Source: Pseudoblastomonas marina | GTDB taxonomy: Bacteria; Pseudomonadota; Alphaproteobacteria; Sphingomonadales; Sphingomonadaceae | NCBI RefSeq assembly: GCF_014641655.1 | Contig: NZ_BMID01000001.1 | Coordinates: 806,001-870,000 of the forward strand | Length of the DNA stretch: 64,000 nt | Reading direction: 5' to 3' | Shown: one piece after another, positions 531 through 16,324 of the stretch | Layout: every line of letters starts with the position of its first letter | Numbering within the stretch: position 1 is the stretch's first letter | The notes under the pieces: model-generated | What the model saw: the letters and a program-made list of their open reading frames with translations, nothing else | Told to the model about the DNA's origin: nothing | Databases searched by the model: none | Made by a program: the position numbers and the translations under genes

Positions 531-1997
531 ATGACCGTGCGCCATGTCGTCCTGTCGGATCTGCATCTGGGGGCGAAGGAAAGCCTGCTCACCCATCTCG
601 ACCATCGCGGGGAGGTCGCGCGCGATCCCTCCGACGTGATGTGCCGACTGGGCGAGGCGCTGCGCGCTACCGTCGCTCCGCTATCCGACGGCGAGCCGGT
701 GCAACTGGTGCTGATGGGCGATGCGCTCGATCTCGGGCTCACGCCGTTCGGAACGGTCAGCCGCGCATTCCTCCACCTGGTCGATGCGCTGTGGCCCGAA
801 GGCGAGCCGCAGGTCTTCTCTCGCGACATCCTCTGCATCCCCGGCAATCACGATCACCATCTGTGGCGGATGGCGCAGGACAGGGCCTTCGTCGATGCTA
901 TCGCCGCTGCGCCCGAGACGGATATCCCATCCGACATTCCCCACGTATCGCGCGCCACCGGCAACCCGACCTATCGCTGCGAGCTGATGGAAGCGATCCT
1001 GACCAAGCGCGCACATATGCGCGGCGCGAGCGTGCGGATCGCCTACCCGAATTATGCCGTAGCCAATGAAGATTCGAGCCGTGCCGTCGTCTTCCACCAT
1101 GGCCATTATATCGATGCGATGTACCGCACCCTCTCGCGCTTGCGCGCATGGATCGCGGGCAGCGACCCCAAGGGCGAGACGATCGCCCAGATCGAGGCCG
1201 AGAACGGCGCCTGGGTCGATTTCCTGTGGTCGAACCTCGGGTCCTGCGGGGAGTGGGGCAGCGAGGCCGATACGCTTTACGAAACCATGCTCGATGCCGG
1301 CGCGAGCCACGATTTCGCCGAGGCGCTCGCCCTGCGCGTATGCGGCGATCTCGGCACGAAGATGGGGGTGCGCGGGGATACCGAGATCAAGTACGGGGTC
1401 ACCGTCGAACAGGCGATCCGTGGGATCGTCGACCTGACTGCAGGCCGCACCGCGCAATCGCAGCGCGACGGCTATGCCCATGTTCTGTCGCGCGGCGAGG
1501 TGGACGATCTCGGCTGGTTCATGTCGGGCCCGGTGGCGAAGCAGCTCGAGCAAGAACTCGGCCGCGTGCCCGAGAACTGCTCGCTGGTGTTCGGTCACAC
1601 CCACAAGCCGTTCCAGGATCAGGTGAAGGCCGACGGCTTCGCCAAGCCGCTCGGCGTCTACAATACCGGCGGCTGGGTGCTCGACCAGCCGACTCTGATG
1701 GCGACGCAGGGCGGCGCGGCGATGTTCGTCGACGATCGATTGGGAGTCGCCAGTCTGCGCCTGTTCAACGATTGCGTCGGCGGGCGGATGCGCGGGGTGC
1801 ATGCCGCGGGTTGCGGGATGCGCACGCGTGAAGACGCTGCGCTGGTGACGCGGTTGCAGGTGCAGGTCGAGGCCAATCGCGCGGGCTGGGATGCCTTCAC
1901 CGCCGCCACGAAGAACCGGATCGAGCGCGGCAGCGCCGAGACAGTGGAGCGCTTCCTCGACCGCGAGCACTGTGTGCTGAAGGAGGCGGCCCAATGA
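531..1997 (+). CDS. Calcineurin-like metallophosphoesterase
   Basis: A 488-residue protein with the complete metallophosphoesterase signature. It has the DxH block (SDLHLG) near the N terminus, GDALD around residue 64, GNHDHH around 105, a lone metal-binding His in VFHHGHY around 190, and the closing GHTH block (FGHTHKPF) near residue 350. These build a dinuclear metal site that hydrolyses phosphomono- or diesters. The substrate cannot be told; there is no signal peptide, so it is probably cytosolic. ATG 531 is preferred over an upstream GTG at 492 because a GGGGGA-type ribosome site precedes it and the DxH block then starts in the usual position. The stop overlaps the next gene's ATG (ATGA), so it is probably translationally coupled to the oxidoreductase/hydrolase fusion downstream. 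Confidence 0.85.
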   Translation: MTVRHVVLSDLHLGAKESLLTHLDHRGEVARDPSDVMCRLGEALRATVAPLSDGEPVQLVLMGDALDLGLTPFGTVSRAFLHLVDALWPEGEPQVFSRDILCIPGNHDHHLWRMAQDRAFVDAIAAAPETDIPSDIPHVSRATGNPTYRCELMEAILTKRAHMRGASVRIAYPNYAVANEDSSRAVVFHHGHYIDAMYRTLSRLRAWIAGSDPKGETIAQIEAENGAWVDFLWSNLGSCGEWGSEADTLYETMLDAGASHDFAEALALRVCGDLGTKMGVRGDTEIKYGVTVEQAIRGIVDLTAGRTAQSQRDGYAHVLSRGEVDDLGWFMSGPVAKQLEQELGRVPENCSLVFGHTHKPFQDQVKADGFAKPLGVYNTGGWVLDQPTLMATQGGAAMFVDDRLGVASLRLFNDCVGGRMRGVHAAGCGMRTREDAALVTRLQVQVEANRAGWDAFTAATKNRIERGSAETVERFLDREHCVLKEAAQ

Positions 1998-4900
1998 ACG
2001 CGATCACCAAGTTCCCGCGCGCCGCGCGCCTGTCGCGTCATATCGACCATGCGCAAGATGCCTACGAGATCGTCGTCATCGGCTCGGGTTACGGCGCGGG
2101 CGTCGCGGCCTCGCGGCTGGCGCGCGCAGGGCGCGAGGTCTGCTTGGTCGAGCGCGGGCGCGAAATCCGCCCAGGCGAATATCCGGAGAAGCTCGGCGAC
2201 GCGCAAGATGCGATGCAGGCGAATACCAGGCGCGGCCGGCTCGGCGACCCGAACGCGATGTTCGAGATGCACGTCAACGACGACCTGTGGGCGCTGGTCG
2301 GCTGCGGGCTCGGCGGTACCTCGCTGATCAACGCCAACGTGTCGCTCGAGATCGAACCGCGCCTGCTCGAAGCCGGGCACTGGCCGCAGGCCTTCCGCGA
2401 CGACCCGGCGATGCTCGAACCTTTCTACGACCGCGCGCGCGAAATGCTCGGTGCCAATCCGTACCCGGCCAGTCGCGCCGAGCCGAACAAGCTGGCGGCA
2501 TTGCGCGAGGCGGCGGAGAAGCTCCAGCAGAAGCATTACCGTACGCCGATCAACGTCAATTTCGCGGACAAGACCAATCGCTTCGGCGTGCCGCAACCGG
2601 CCTGCAACGACTGCGGCAATTGCGTCTCGGGCTGCAATGTCGGCGCGAAGAACACCACGCTGATGAACTACCTGCCCGACGCCGCGAACCACGGCGCACA
2701 GATATTCACCGAAGCGCGTGTCGATTGGGTCGAGCGGGACGGCGAAACCTGGATAGTCCACCTCGAAAACGGTCGCAGTATTTCTGCACAACACGTTGTT
2801 CTGGGAGCAGGAACACTCGGTTCCACCGAAATACTCTTAAGATCGAAAGCACGCGGGCTGAAGCTCTCCGATCGTCTTGGCACAGGTTTCTCGGGCAATG
2901 GCGACGTGCTCGGCTACAGCTACGACAGCTACTGGAAGACGTCGAAGGACGATGACGGCAACGTCACCAGTGCGCCGGTCAATGCGATCGGCCATGCCAG
3001 CGACGCCGTGCCCGATCAGGGCGCGCCGGGGCCGTGCATTACCGGCGTGATCGACATGCGCGACTGCGCCGACGTCGGGCGTGGGCTGGTGGTGGAGGAA
3101 GGCGTCGTGCCCTCGATCATCGCTCCGCTGCTCGCGCCTGCGTTCTTCTTCTGCGAGGCCAATGGCGGCAATTTCGCACGCTTCGGCATCGACGAGATCA
3201 AGCCGCGGCTGATGGACGCCAAGGATATGGGGCTCTCGTTCCAGTCCGATCCCGGCGCAATCGGCGAATGGGCCTATAAGGGCCCGGTCTCGCGCCTTCA
3301 GACCTTCCTCGTGATGAGCGTCGAAGAGGGACGCGGTACGCTCGAGCTCGACAACGACCGATTGAAGATCGACTGGCCCAAGGTCGGCGAAGATCCCTCG
3401 ATCGTCCACGACAACAACGTGCTTGCACAGGTCGCCGGCGCGATGTCTGGCCAGTTCTTCCCCAACCCGCTCTGGACCGATCCGCTGGGCAAGAAGCTCG
3501 TCACGGTCCACCCGGTCGGCGGCTGCGGAATGGGCGACGATGCGGCCCACGGCGTGATCGACCATGCCTGCCGCGTGTTCACCGGCGAGGGCGACTCGAC
3601 CTATCGCGGGCTTTACGTCTGCGACGGCGCGGCGATGTCCGGGCCCGTCGGGGTCAACCCGCTGCTTACGATCACTGCCGTTGCCGAACGGGCGATGGAA
3701 TTGATGGCGCAGCGCGAAGGCTGGCAGATCGACTGGACGATGGGCGAAGAAGCCCCGCTGCCCGCGCTCGAGGCCGAAGCTCCACAACCCGAGGCCGACA
3801 AGCCTCATCCGAAGCATTTCGCACAAGTCCACCAGCGCATCGCGCACCTCGTCGACGAGAGCGTGCTGGCCAAGGTCGCGCATGCGGTGGCGGGGATCGA
3901 GCACGCCGCATCGCAGGGCGCGCTCGACGAGGCCAAGCGCGCGGTGAAGAAGCTGGTGATCGAGTATCCCGACCTGATGAGCCCGCAATTCGGCTTTACC
4001 GAGCGTATGGCAGGGTTCGTCAGCGCCGAAGGGTTGGGCAATCCCTGCTGCCCGGGCGAGCGCATCTCCGACGATTTCGCCGCCGGTGCCGCCTGGGGCG
4101 AGAGCGAGGGGACCTCCTGCGCCTTCGAACTGACCGTTCATACCGACGACCTCAATGCGCTGGTCTCGCGCCCCGAGCACCAGGGTGTGCTGACGGGCGA
4201 GGTTGCCTGCGATCTCGTTTCGCCTGCACCGATGAAGGTTCGAGATGGCCGCTTCAACCTGCTGACCGTCGATCCCGACTGCCCCGAGCGCTGGCTGATG
4301 AGCTATGTGATGGTGCTCGAGCGCGAAGGTGGCGAACCGGTGCACTTCCACGGTTTCAAAACCTTGCAGCAGCGCAGGGGCTCCGATCCCTGGACCGACC
4401 TCACCACGCTGTTCCTGACGATCAGCGAAGGCGAGGACGGAAACGGTGCGGTGCTCGCCAAGGGAATCCTCAAGCTCGAGCTCACCGACCTGATGTGGCA
4501 GGCGAAGAGCTTCGCCCTGCCGTGCCAGGACAATCTCGCCGGCCATCTGATCGACCGGGTCCCGGCGGCGAAGGACGCCATCGCCGAATATTTCCTCGCC
4601 AAGTTCGCGGCGCTGTTCGGCCTGTCGAGCTTCCAGGCCTATGGCGGCATGCTCGCCACGCTCAACGACTTTCCCGCCAAGCAGGCGGAGGACCTACGCC
4701 ATCGCACGCTCGATGCGCCCGCGTCGGAGCGGCATGTCGTGCCGACGGCGGACGGCTGGAACGTCGCATTGACCCGTTACCAGGGCGGCGCGAAGGGGCC
4801 GGTGTTGCTCGCGCCGGGTTTCTCGGTGAAGGCGTCGAGTTTCGCGACCGACACGGTGGCGCGCAACCTCGTCGAGGAGCTCTGCGCCGCCGATTACGAC

Positions 4901-5749
4901 GTCTGGCTGTTCGACTATCGCGCCAGCGCCGATAGCGGGAATCCGCTCGATCCGCCCAAGCCCTTCACGATCGACGATATCGCGCAGCACGACTGGCCCG
5001 CCGCGGTCGATTTCGTGCGCGCGCGGACCGGCGCGGAGAGCGTGCAGGCGATGGCGCATTGCGTGGGCTCGATGAGCCTGCTGATGGCTCTCGCCGCCGG
5101 CCACGTATCGGGCATCCGCTCGGTGGTCAGTTCGCAACTTACGCTGCATCCGGTGACCGACTGGATGAACTACCTGAAGGCCGATATCGGCACCGCCAAG
5201 CTTATGGGGCAGGTTGCACAGCTCGGCGGGCATATCGGCTTCGCGCCCACGGGAACCGAGCTCGACTACGAGATCGACGCGGTCGCCTACAATTTGCCGG
5301 TACCTGAAGGGCAGGAGTGCAAGAATCCCGCCTGCCGCCGCGTCTTCGGCATTTTCGGTCCGAGCTACGACCATGCGCAGCTCGGTCACGCCACCCACGT
5401 CGCGATCGCTTCCATGTTCAGCGATATTTCGCTGAAACCTTTCGACCAACTCTCGGCGATCATGCACGAGGGCAAGGTTGTCGATGCGGCAGGCAAGGAC
5501 GTCTATCTAGGAACCGAGAATGTGCATCGCATGGCGCTGCCGATCACCTTCCTTTCGGGCGCTAACAACCAGATCTTCTATCCCGAAGGCGCGCAGCGCA
5601 CGCGGGCCTGGTTGGCGGCGCACAACGATCCGGCGCTCTACGAGCAGATCGTGATCCCCGATTACGCCCATATGGACCTGTTCATCGGCCGCGATGCCGC
5701 GCGCGACGTGGCGCCGATCATCGTCGGGGAGCTCGACAGGTTCAATTGA
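1994..5749 (+). CDS. GMC-type FAD oxidoreductase fused to an alpha/beta hydrolase
   Basis: A very long, 1251-residue protein. Residues about 24-580 form a GMC/cholesterol-oxidase-like flavoprotein. A dinucleotide motif GSGYGAG sits at 30-36, a four-cysteine cluster C-x2-C-x2-C-x3-C at 204, 207, 210 and 214, the HPVGGCGMG block near 506 and the VNPLLT block near 555. An acidic linker follows, then a middle domain of unclear type (about 660-840), then an alpha/beta hydrolase domain (about 900-1251). Its nucleophile elbow reads AHCVGS, placing Cys 1023 where Ser is usual; the likely catalytic His lies in DYAHMDLF near the end. It probably oxidises an alcohol or sterol-like substrate and hydrolyses a product, but the substrate is unknown. 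It overlaps the metallophosphoesterase by four bases. Confidence 0.85.
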   Translation: MNAITKFPRAARLSRHIDHAQDAYEIVVIGSGYGAGVAASRLARAGREVCLVERGREIRPGEYPEKLGDAQDAMQANTRRGRLGDPNAMFEMHVNDDLWALVGCGLGGTSLINANVSLEIEPRLLEAGHWPQAFRDDPAMLEPFYDRAREMLGANPYPASRAEPNKLAALREAAEKLQQKHYRTPINVNFADKTNRFGVPQPACNDCGNCVSGCNVGAKNTTLMNYLPDAANHGAQIFTEARVDWVERDGETWIVHLENGRSISAQHVVLGAGTLGSTEILLRSKARGLKLSDRLGTGFSGNGDVLGYSYDSYWKTSKDDDGNVTSAPVNAIGHASDAVPDQGAPGPCITGVIDMRDCADVGRGLVVEEGVVPSIIAPLLAPAFFFCEANGGNFARFGIDEIKPRLMDAKDMGLSFQSDPGAIGEWAYKGPVSRLQTFLVMSVEEGRGTLELDNDRLKIDWPKVGEDPSIVHDNNVLAQVAGAMSGQFFPNPLWTDPLGKKLVTVHPVGGCGMGDDAAHGVIDHACRVFTGEGDSTYRGLYVCDGAAMSGPVGVNPLLTITAVAERAMELMAQREGWQIDWTMGEEAPLPALEAEAPQPEADKPHPKHFAQVHQRIAHLVDESVLAKVAHAVAGIEHAASQGALDEAKRAVKKLVIEYPDLMSPQFGFTERMAGFVSAEGLGNPCCPGERISDDFAAGAAWGESEGTSCAFELTVHTDDLNALVSRPEHQGVLTGEVACDLVSPAPMKVRDGRFNLLTVDPDCPERWLMSYVMVLEREGGEPVHFHGFKTLQQRRGSDPWTDLTTLFLTISEGEDGNGAVLAKGILKLELTDLMWQAKSFALPCQDNLAGHLIDRVPAAKDAIAEYFLAKFAALFGLSSFQAYGGMLATLNDFPAKQAEDLRHRTLDAPASERHVVPTADGWNVALTRYQGGAKGPVLLAPGFSVKASSFATDTVARNLVEELCAADYDVWLFDYRASADSGNPLDPPKPFTIDDIAQHDWPAAVDFVRARTGAESVQAMAHCVGSMSLLMALAAGHVSGIRSVVSSQLTLHPVTDWMNYLKADIGTAKLMGQVAQLGGHIGFAPTGTELDYEIDAVAYNLPVPEGQECKNPACRRVFGIFGPSYDHAQLGHATHVAIASMFSDISLKPFDQLSAIMHEGKVVDAAGKDVYLGTENVHRMALPITFLSGANNQIFYPEGAQRTRAWLAAHNDPALYEQIVIPDYAHMDLFIGRDAARDVAPIIVGELDRFN

Positions 5750-8081: not shown

Positions 8082-11000
8082 TTGCGTTCCCTGATCGGCC
8101 TTCCCCTCATTGCCCTGATCTGCGCCCCCACTTCTGTCATCGCGCAGGACGCCGAAGGCGAGGATGCCGTCGCCGCGGCGGATGCAGAAGTCGGCGATAG
8201 CTGTGCCGAAGACATCAATTGCATCGTCGTCTCGGCCGAGCGACTGCTGGGGCAGGTCGATGCGGCGCAGGAACCGATCCAGACGCTCGACGAGGCCGAT
8301 ATCGCGGCCTACGGCGCAGGCTCGATCGCCGAACTCGTCCAGCAGCTCGGCCCAACGGTCAGCTCGGGCGGCGCACGCGGCGGCGGACCCCCGGCCATCC
8401 TGCTCAACGGCGTGCGCATCTCGGGCTTCCGCGAATTGCGCAACTTCCCGCCCGAAGCGATCGAGCGCGTCGAGGTCCTGCCCGAGGAAACCGCGGTCCG
8501 CTTCGGTTTCTCGCCCAACCAGCGGGTGATCAACTTCATTCTAAAGGACAATTTCACCGCCAAGACGGTCGAGATCGAAGGCGGCGGGCCGTTCCAGGAC
8601 GGCTTCACGCGCGGCGAACTCGAAGCCAGCGCGCTGAATATTTCGGGCAGCACAAGGATCAGCCTCGCGCTCGAGGCCGAGGCGCGCCAGCGGATTACCG
8701 AGGCCGACCGCGACCTGCCGGTCGCCGATGGCTCCGAGGACCGGCTGGCCGGTGATCCGGATCCGGCCGAATTCCGCACGCTAGTGCCCGAGAGCGACGA
8801 ATTGTCGCTCAACGGAACGGTCGCTGTCCCGATCGGGGAGGGCGGCAAGGACGGCTCGCTCTCGGTCAATGGCACGCTGTCGCGCAGCAGCTCGCGCTCG
8901 CTCGCGGGGCTCGACACCGTTACCCTCACCGATCCGCTCGGCAACACGCAGGTCCGCACGCTGTCCGATCCGCTCGAGCGGCGAACCCGCAACGTCACCG
9001 CGCAGATCGGGAGCGCGTTTTCGACCAATATCGGCGACTGGCAGCTGAGCCTGACGGGCGACGGCACCCATACCGAGGGTTTCACCCGGATCGATCGTCG
9101 CGCCGATGTCGGTATCCTGCAGGCGCAGGCGCTGGCCGGGACCCTTGCGATCGACGGTGTGCTGCCGGGGCTCCCCCTCGCGGGGGTCGATTTCGCCAAT
9201 AGCAAGACCAACCGTCTCGATACCGACGCAACGCTGATCGGCCGCCCCTTGCTCCTCCCCGGCGGCGACCTGTTGGTAACGCTGAAGGGCGGCTTCACCT
9301 ATAACGACATCCGCAGCGACGACACGCGCAGCGGGCTGGGCGAGACCTTCCTCGACCGCACGCGCTTTTCCGGCGGGGTGACGCTGGGAGTCCCGATCAC
9401 CAGCGTCGACGAAGGCTTCGGCGATTTTCTCGGCGACATCACGCTCGATCTCGGGGCCTCGATCAACGATTTGTCCGATTTCGGTTCGCTCTATGCCTGG
9501 TCGAGCTCGCTCAACTGGCGCCCGATCGAGGCTGTCGGCTTCACCGCGACCTACCAGTACCGGCAGGAAGCCCCGTCGCTGACCCAGCTGGGCAGTCCGC
9601 TGACCGAGAACTTCAACACGCCCGTCTTCGACCTCGCGCGCAACGAGACGACGCTGGCGACGGTGATCGGCGGAGGTAATCCGGACCTCCTGCGCGAGAC
9701 CCAACGCGACTGGAAATTCGCCTTCAACTACAATCTTCCCTTCATCGAGAACGGGCGCTTCCAGGTCGAATATTTCACCAATGATTCGGACGACGTGACC
9801 GCGGGCTTCCCGACGCTCACGCCCGAGATCGAGGCGGCTTTCCCGGGTCGCGTCTCGCGCGACGCGACCGGGCGTCTGCAGGAGCTCGACCTGCGCCCGG
9901 TGACCTTCGCAGAGCGCAATTCGGAATCGCTGCGCTTCTCGCTCAACCTCTCCGGCCCGTTCGGGTCGGCTTTCCCCGAGGGGGAAGAACCGGCGGCACA
10001 GGGCCGTCGCGGCGGTCCTCCCGGCGGGGGATCACAGGCGCGCGGTGGTGGTGGCGGCCAGGGCGGCGGAATGTTCTCGCCCGAGCGGATGCAGCAATTG
10101 CGCGACCAGCTTTGTTCGGACGATCCCGAAGAATTCCTCGCCCGCCTCAAGGCGGCGGCGGAAAGCGAAAATCCGCCATTCCCGCCGCAGATGCTGGCGC
10201 GGCTCAAGAACGATGCCGGCGAGCTCGACCCGCAGCGAGTCGAATTCGTGCGTCGCCAGTTCTGCCGCGCCGGCGATGGCGAGAGCGAAGGTACGCCGGG
10301 CGCCCCCGGTGGCCCCGACCGCGAACGCCTCGCCGCGATCCGGCAGGAGCTGTGCTCGCTCAGCCCGTCCGATTTCCTCGAACGCCTCAGGGCCGAGGTC
10401 GCGCGTGCCGAGAGTGGCGAGATCGCGGAGGGCGATCGCCCGGCGATCCCGTCCTTCATCCTCGACCAGATCAAGGACGAGAATGGCGAGATCGACCCCG
10501 AGAAGGCCGAACAGTTGCGCCAGCGCATCTGTGCCGCCGGTCCGGGGGGTGAGGGCGGACAACGCGCCGAAGGCGGCGGTGGCGGTGGCCAGCAGCGGTC
10601 ACGCGGCGGGCGTCGCGGCGGGGGTGGTTTTGGCGGCGGCGGTGACGGGCGCGGGCGGTTCTTCGCCAACGCCGACTACACGCTGCGGCTCGAGGACGAG
10701 GTGCTGATCGCCCCGGGCGGGCCGTTCCTCGACCTGCTCGACGGCGATTCGATTGCGGGCGGTGGTAGCCCGCGCCATGAATTCCGCGTTTTCGGCGGGG
10801 CGTTCTATCGCGGCTTCGGCAGCTTCCTGAGTGCGAACTACACCGGCGAGACGCGCGTCGACGGCAGCGGCCTGCCGGGCAGCACCGACCTGTTCTATGG
10901 CGAGCAGTTCACTCTCAATGCGCGCTTCTTCATCGATTTCGACCAGCGCGAGAGCATCGTTGCGGCGGTGCCCTTCCTCGAAGGGTCGCGCTTCTCGTTC

Positions 11001-11132
11001 TCGGTGTCGAACATCTTCGATTCTCGCCGTTCGATCGTCGACCAGAACGGCGATGTGCCCAATGCATTCCTGCCCGATCGGCTCGATCCATACGGTCGCT
11101 CGTTCGAGATCGATTTCAGGAAAGCGTTCTAG
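8082..11132 (+). CDS. TonB-dependent outer-membrane receptor with a duplicated Cys-bracketed insertion
   Basis: A 1016-residue outer-membrane receptor. TTG 8082 is the best start: GGAG lies seven bases upstream, and the protein then opens directly with a signal peptide (MRSLIGLPLIALICAPTSVIAQ) cut before DAEG. A plug-like domain follows (TLDEADIAAYGAGS, AILLNGVRI, ERVEVLPEETAVRFG), then the beta-barrel, ending in the expected terminal Phe. Between about residues 631 and 860 the barrel is interrupted by Gly/Pro/Arg-rich linkers. These enclose two similar helical modules (about 668-734 and 746-822), each bracketed by two cysteines (678/728 and 758/817). The transported substrate is unknown, and no transporter genes sit next to it. 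Confidence 0.85.
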   Translation: MRSLIGLPLIALICAPTSVIAQDAEGEDAVAAADAEVGDSCAEDINCIVVSAERLLGQVDAAQEPIQTLDEADIAAYGAGSIAELVQQLGPTVSSGGARGGGPPAILLNGVRISGFRELRNFPPEAIERVEVLPEETAVRFGFSPNQRVINFILKDNFTAKTVEIEGGGPFQDGFTRGELEASALNISGSTRISLALEAEARQRITEADRDLPVADGSEDRLAGDPDPAEFRTLVPESDELSLNGTVAVPIGEGGKDGSLSVNGTLSRSSSRSLAGLDTVTLTDPLGNTQVRTLSDPLERRTRNVTAQIGSAFSTNIGDWQLSLTGDGTHTEGFTRIDRRADVGILQAQALAGTLAIDGVLPGLPLAGVDFANSKTNRLDTDATLIGRPLLLPGGDLLVTLKGGFTYNDIRSDDTRSGLGETFLDRTRFSGGVTLGVPITSVDEGFGDFLGDITLDLGASINDLSDFGSLYAWSSSLNWRPIEAVGFTATYQYRQEAPSLTQLGSPLTENFNTPVFDLARNETTLATVIGGGNPDLLRETQRDWKFAFNYNLPFIENGRFQVEYFTNDSDDVTAGFPTLTPEIEAAFPGRVSRDATGRLQELDLRPVTFAERNSESLRFSLNLSGPFGSAFPEGEEPAAQGRRGGPPGGGSQARGGGGGQGGGMFSPERMQQLRDQLCSDDPEEFLARLKAAAESENPPFPPQMLARLKNDAGELDPQRVEFVRRQFCRAGDGESEGTPGAPGGPDRERLAAIRQELCSLSPSDFLERLRAEVARAESGEIAEGDRPAIPSFILDQIKDENGEIDPEKAEQLRQRICAAGPGGEGGQRAEGGGGGGQQRSRGGRRGGGGFGGGGDGRGRFFANADYTLRLEDEVLIAPGGPFLDLLDGDSIAGGGSPRHEFRVFGGAFYRGFGSFLSANYTGETRVDGSGLPGSTDLFYGEQFTLNARFFIDFDQRESIVAAVPFLEGSRFSFSVSNIFDSRRSIVDQNGDVPNAFLPDRLDPYGRSFEIDFRKAF

Positions 11133-15919: not shown

Positions 15920-15949
15920 ATCGTGGCAAAGGTTAGAGGGGTGCGGTTG

Positions 15950-16324
15950 ATGTCTAGTTTCTTGAGGTTGGCCGCTGCAGCGCTTCTCGTCAGTGCCTGC
16001 GCGACCAGCTCAGCTGCCCCTCGAGACGAGACTGACGACAAATCTCGCGAGGCCTCGATCACGAACGACATGGAGTGGCTTCGAAAGTCCTACCAGTCGC
16101 GGCCGCGCAATCTGAGGCGGGGCGTGAAGGGCACCGTGAGGATGCTGATCACGGTGAGGCCGTCCGGCAAGGTTTCCAAATGTGTGATCATACGCAGCAG
16201 CGAGAATGCTGCGCTCGATAGCTATGCCTGCCGAAGCGTCGTTCGATACGGGAAATTCGAGCCGGCGCTCGATGCCTCAGGCACGCCCATCGAAGACACC
16301 GTTGTCCTCGCGTTGATGGTCTAG
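15950..16324 (+). CDS. Lipoprotein with a TonB-C-terminal-like domain
   Basis: A 124-residue lipoprotein. ATG 15950 is chosen because AGAGGGG lies seven bases upstream; a GTG at 15923 is poorer. The N terminus is a lipoprotein signal (LRLAAAALLVSAC, lipid on the Cys). The C-terminal 75 residues follow the TonB C-terminal pattern: a basic strand (RRGVKGTVRMLITVRPSGKV), then CVIIRSSENAALDSYACRSV and a final strand ending VVLALMV. Two cysteines in this domain may form a disulphide. Proteins with this fold outside TonB are usually of unknown function and sit in the periplasm. It starts about 30 bases after uvrC and converges with the helicase gene. Confidence 0.7.
   Translation: MSSFLRLAAAALLVSACATSSAAPRDETDDKSREASITNDMEWLRKSYQSRPRNLRRGVKGTVRMLITVRPSGKVSKCVIIRSSENAALDSYACRSVVRYGKFEPALDASGTPIEDTVVLALMV

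Follow-up and report, generated by a model that had tools for sequence, protein, structure and literature searches.

In the 64,000-nucleotide stretch of the Pseudoblastomonas marina genome analysed here (the window), a gene of the TonB-dependent receptor type carries within its barrel sequence a long insertion with two similar, cysteine-bracketed segments. This raises the question of whether the insertion is a true structural feature, on which side of the outer membrane it is located and what it may do there.

The gene (8082..11132, forward strand) codes for 1016 amino acids and likely starts with a TTG codon at 8082, with GGAG located upstream; many orthologues likewise seem to use TTG or GTG. 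A plug domain (PF07715) was detected with Pfam at an E-value of 1.3e-6 (29.3 bits versus a cut-off of 23.9), and matches to the receptor at E 0.001 or better are present in 43 of 59 sampled relatives, distant receptors being counted in. Judged by its sequence, the gene product is a TonB-dependent outer-membrane receptor. The fold predicted by AlphaFold is the 22-strand barrel of TonB receptors (pTM 0.66 for the whole model), where the strand count, obtained with DSSP, leaves out short bridges inside the loops. The nearest solved folds are those of Fiu (Z 23.5), PirA (22.5), Cir (21.9) and BtuB (21.0), and the 50 solved entries compared with the model, nearly all of them TonB receptors, range from Z 18.4 to 23.5. 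Before the plug, a Ton-box-like segment IVVSAERLL (8223..8249, forward strand) is aligned by the receptor profile with the BtuB Ton-box segment DTLVVTANRF, a stretch of the alignment which taken alone is weak. An extra cysteine pair, C41 and C47 (8202-8222), lies just before this segment and among the aligned homologues is found only in the genus of P. marina.

Plug domain, Ton box, 22-strand barrel and overall fold are thus common to this receptor and to BtuB, Fiu, FhuA and Cir. In these receptors, the turn T8 consists of a few residues, whereas here 230 residues (628-857; 9963..10652, forward strand) are inserted in T8 between the predicted strands 16 (607-627) and 17 (858-875). Ordinary TonB receptors lack such an insertion, as originally predicted, and the Gly/Arg/Pro-rich linkers around the modules were found as described, the insert being slightly wider at its 5' side than reported. 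On the forward strand, it is composed of an N-terminal linker of 37 residues with 16 Gly (9963..10073), module 1 (10074..10274), a Gly/Pro-rich linker of 13 residues (10275..10313), module 2 (10314..10541) and a C-terminal linker of 37 residues with 21 Gly and 6 Arg (10542..10652). Over most of the two outer linkers (residues 633-665 and 820-853) the pLDDT is below 50. Both modules match the module profile and each contains two cysteines, C678 and C728 in module 1 and C758 and C817 in module 2, exactly the residues named beforehand (window positions 10113, 10263, 10353 and 10530, numbered from the TTG at 8082).

Whether the two modules align above chance was decisive for calling them a duplication. 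The local alignment extends over nearly their full length with a score of 135 and an identity of 39%, while 20,000 shuffles gave a mean of 27 and a maximum of 65. This alignment identifies them as a genuine repeat and supports an internal duplication. Their helical nature is borne out by the AlphaFold prediction as well: module 1 alone, modeled with 97 aligned modules, is predicted to form four helices (3-15, 18-29, 38-44 and 53-66) with a mean pLDDT of 80, and in module 2 helices are predicted at 747-759, 762-777, 791-796 and 806-818. In the model of the full receptor the confidence within the modules is moderate, with pLDDT mostly 60 to 85. Short modules lacking the second helix also appear to exist, as suggested by the alignment.

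The original prediction placed the modules in a loop projecting outside the cell, which might capture an extracellular substrate, polymer or partner protein, and when outer-membrane barrels carry long and variable insertions, these are indeed usually extracellular. The AlphaFold model contradicts this placement, since the gap between strands 16 and 17 is an even-to-odd one, that is the periplasmic turn T8, and not an odd-to-even, extracellular loop. The other nine even-to-odd gaps of the model comprise 2, 6, 2, 2, 10, 2, 5, 2 and 16 residues, and the periplasmic turns of outer-membrane barrels normally have few residues. The same result is obtained from the C-terminal end, which in outer-membrane barrels lies in the periplasm, since six strands follow the insert. 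Strand parity thus assigns the insert to the membrane side where the short turns and the two termini lie. Furthermore, in a profile alignment, which worked for two other TonB receptors of the genome while most others did not align, the receptor L210 spans the insert point with only some 9 residues, again arguing against an extracellular loop, and in the module-free paralogue L194 the turn comprises about 35. The capture of an extracellular ligand is therefore not supported and appears highly improbable. Strand parity of the predicted model together with standard barrel topology instead predicts a periplasmic insert near the docking place of TonB.

The number of modules was suspected to vary among homologues, and this variation is large. 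Among 116 deduplicated homologues, the module profile detected two modules in 48, one in 37 and none in 31, a count that includes some incomplete loci and in which the most distant module-free members may be paralogues. The surroundings of the gene are constant: infA adjoins the receptor at all 80 named loci, most of which are from Erythrobacteraceae and Novosphingobium, maf is present at 79 and an RNase E/G gene lies beyond at 78 of them. These fixed neighbours indicate that one orthologous, vertically kept locus is compared, at which zero, one or two modules are found beside infA and maf. As to the substrate, infA, maf and the RNase E/G gene give no clue to the ligand. A module-free receptor from Croceicoccus mobilis (L133) groups with the P. 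marina receptor in the tree; at its locus, uvrC is located upstream of the receptor on the opposite strand, which differs from the other loci where uvrC was found.

A receptor tree calculated from the sequence outside the insert requires at least 15 changes in module number. In a tree of the modules themselves, which is short (58 columns) and poorly resolved at many forks, both modules of the genus of P. marina form one group (support 81). The same holds for the Novosphingobium resinovorum clade (support 84) but not for Qipengyuania, whose modules 1 and 2 are separate. Several separate duplications plus an older one would be the simplest reading of these sequences. In module-free relatives, a cysteine-free segment that differs in length and is usually rich in Gly and Pro occupies the corresponding position. 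Such a turnover, together with the bare, often Gly-rich turn kept by the module-free relatives, is what would be seen if T8 were a tolerant turn collecting Gly-rich sequence and small domains in a near-neutral manner and with little function.

A neutral region would be expected to look like the linkers, and the modules do not. Exactly two cysteines are present in all 133 modules found, and none in the linkers or in the loops that lack modules, a pattern which suggests that each module is probably closed by one disulphide, in line with the cysteine bracketing initially noticed. In 13 close orthologue pairs the pooled dN/dS is 0.111 for the modules, as low as that of the rest of the receptor (0.141), and 0.249 for the linkers; the same pairs contain 6 gap columns in the modules, 57 in the rest of the receptor and 126 in the linkers. 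This contrast is absent in the P. marina receptor's own pair (L002/L003), with 0.275 for the modules, 0.199 for the rest and 0.208 for the linkers. By these pooled substitution rates, the modules are under purifying selection as strong as that of the barrel. Since the modules are conserved and the linkers are not, the insert is more than a low-complexity expansion, the outcome that would have spoken against the modules, and its near-neutral origin is quite improbable.

A search for similar modules outside of receptors, as had been proposed, revealed none that is convincing. In samples of the family (298 genomes), the order (396 genomes) and the phylum (398 genomes), strong profile matches were confined to frames of receptor size or frames cut by a contig end, where matches without a checked locus were judged by frame length alone. 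Of 63 module loci checked, 61 hold the receptor, one is truncated where its contig ends and the last (L169) is a weak match to a periplasmic EF-hand protein from another order of Alphaproteobacteria. No match to the module was found in plasmids and phages. Among 1152 genomes it was seen only in this receptor and in one bacterial family. Pfam yielded scattered weak matches without a recurring family, no solved structure matched the module significantly in sequence or fold (the best Foldseek E-value of any fold was 1.3), and no paper on such an insert was found in the open-access literature. The module is without a Pfam family and without a convincing solved fold.

These results also bear on the idea of an envelope tether, in which the receptor would be anchored to the cell wall by Gly/Arg-rich arms and modules that attach to peptidoglycan. 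The predicted periplasmic location, the cationic C-terminal linker with its six Arg in 37 residues and linkers whose length would let them reach away from the membrane surface would fit to such a tether. However, the modules resemble no peptidoglycan-binding family, are themselves mostly net acidic, and a distribution restricted to a single receptor would be odd for a general tether, which makes this role distinctly unlikely.

The module bears some likeness to EF-hand proteins, weak in profile around a helix-DGxID-helix and weak in fold, with Z under 3 (calbindomodulin, Z 2.9; caltractin, Z 2.6). None of 97 modules matched a Pfam EF-hand at E 0.1, and by eye no calcium ligand is seen at loop positions 1 and 12. 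In contrast to EF-hands, the module is probably disulphide-closed and, in its short form, appears to lack the second helix. We treat the likeness as a common helix-turn-helix shape. This touches on a further possible role, in which the modules would accept the transported ligand, or a metal, where it leaves the barrel on the periplasmic side and then hand it over. Their position at the barrel mouth, conserved Arg in helices 1, 3 and 4 that could bind an anion and the weakly EF-hand-like helix-DG-helix motif point in this direction, but the failure to find an EF-hand and the homologues without any module argue against it, and such a hand-over is unlikely.

What, then, would a periplasmic turn of this size do? 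In the crystal complex of FhuA with TonB, the sheet formed by the Ton box and TonB is shown next to the turns T8 and T9 (PMC11658791), and in HasR the periplasmic loops 1, 4 and 10 contribute to the binding of the TonB protein HasB (PMC11633176). The simplest reading of these two observations would be an arm that docks TonB or another periplasmic partner close by. Here, T8 would have been expanded into a flexible Gly/Arg-rich arm, on which the duplicated, probably disulphide-closed modules would serve as tethered docking sites, holding a periplasmic partner at the receptor's opening or gating it there. The leading candidate for this partner would be the C-terminal domain of TonB or the motor around it; the best TonB_C matches of the genome are located at 2341681 and 1760313 of contig C1. 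The effect of such an arm would be to make capture more probable or to tune the coupling, with its reach or avidity adjusted by a copy number from 0 to 2. We regard this as a plausible but tentative explanation, since the HasR loops that matter are 1, 4 and 10 and not 8, and the loss of modules is tolerated; the module-free homologues imply that the receptor can do without the arm.

Receptors of the HasR/FoxA type likewise have an additional domain in the periplasm close to where TonB docks. There, the domain is N-terminal and precedes the Ton box, whereas here it lies inside the barrel sequence and is of another, helical kind. A more far-reaching and so far doubtful possibility is that the modules constitute an undescribed family of periplasmic domains, repeated on a barrel turn, which would dock the TonB motor or other periplasmic machines onto one core receptor and evolve by gain and loss of copies.

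The receptor itself belongs to an already known kind, the TonB-dependent receptors; new is the predicted periplasmic turn of 230 residues with modules that have no Pfam entry. Within TonB coupling, the step of capture or regulation is still poorly understood. A turn T8 with zero, one or two conserved, probably disulphide-closed modules at one locus represents a natural copy-number series, whose members could be compared to learn whether barrel turns contribute to the capture or regulation of TonB.

Two other genes of the window deserve mention. A single frame of 1251 amino acids (1994-5746) joins a GMC oxidoreductase to an alpha/beta hydrolase domain. About 5 kb from the receptor, a small TonB_C protein (PF03544, E 2e-9) is encoded at 15923-16321 directly behind uvrC.
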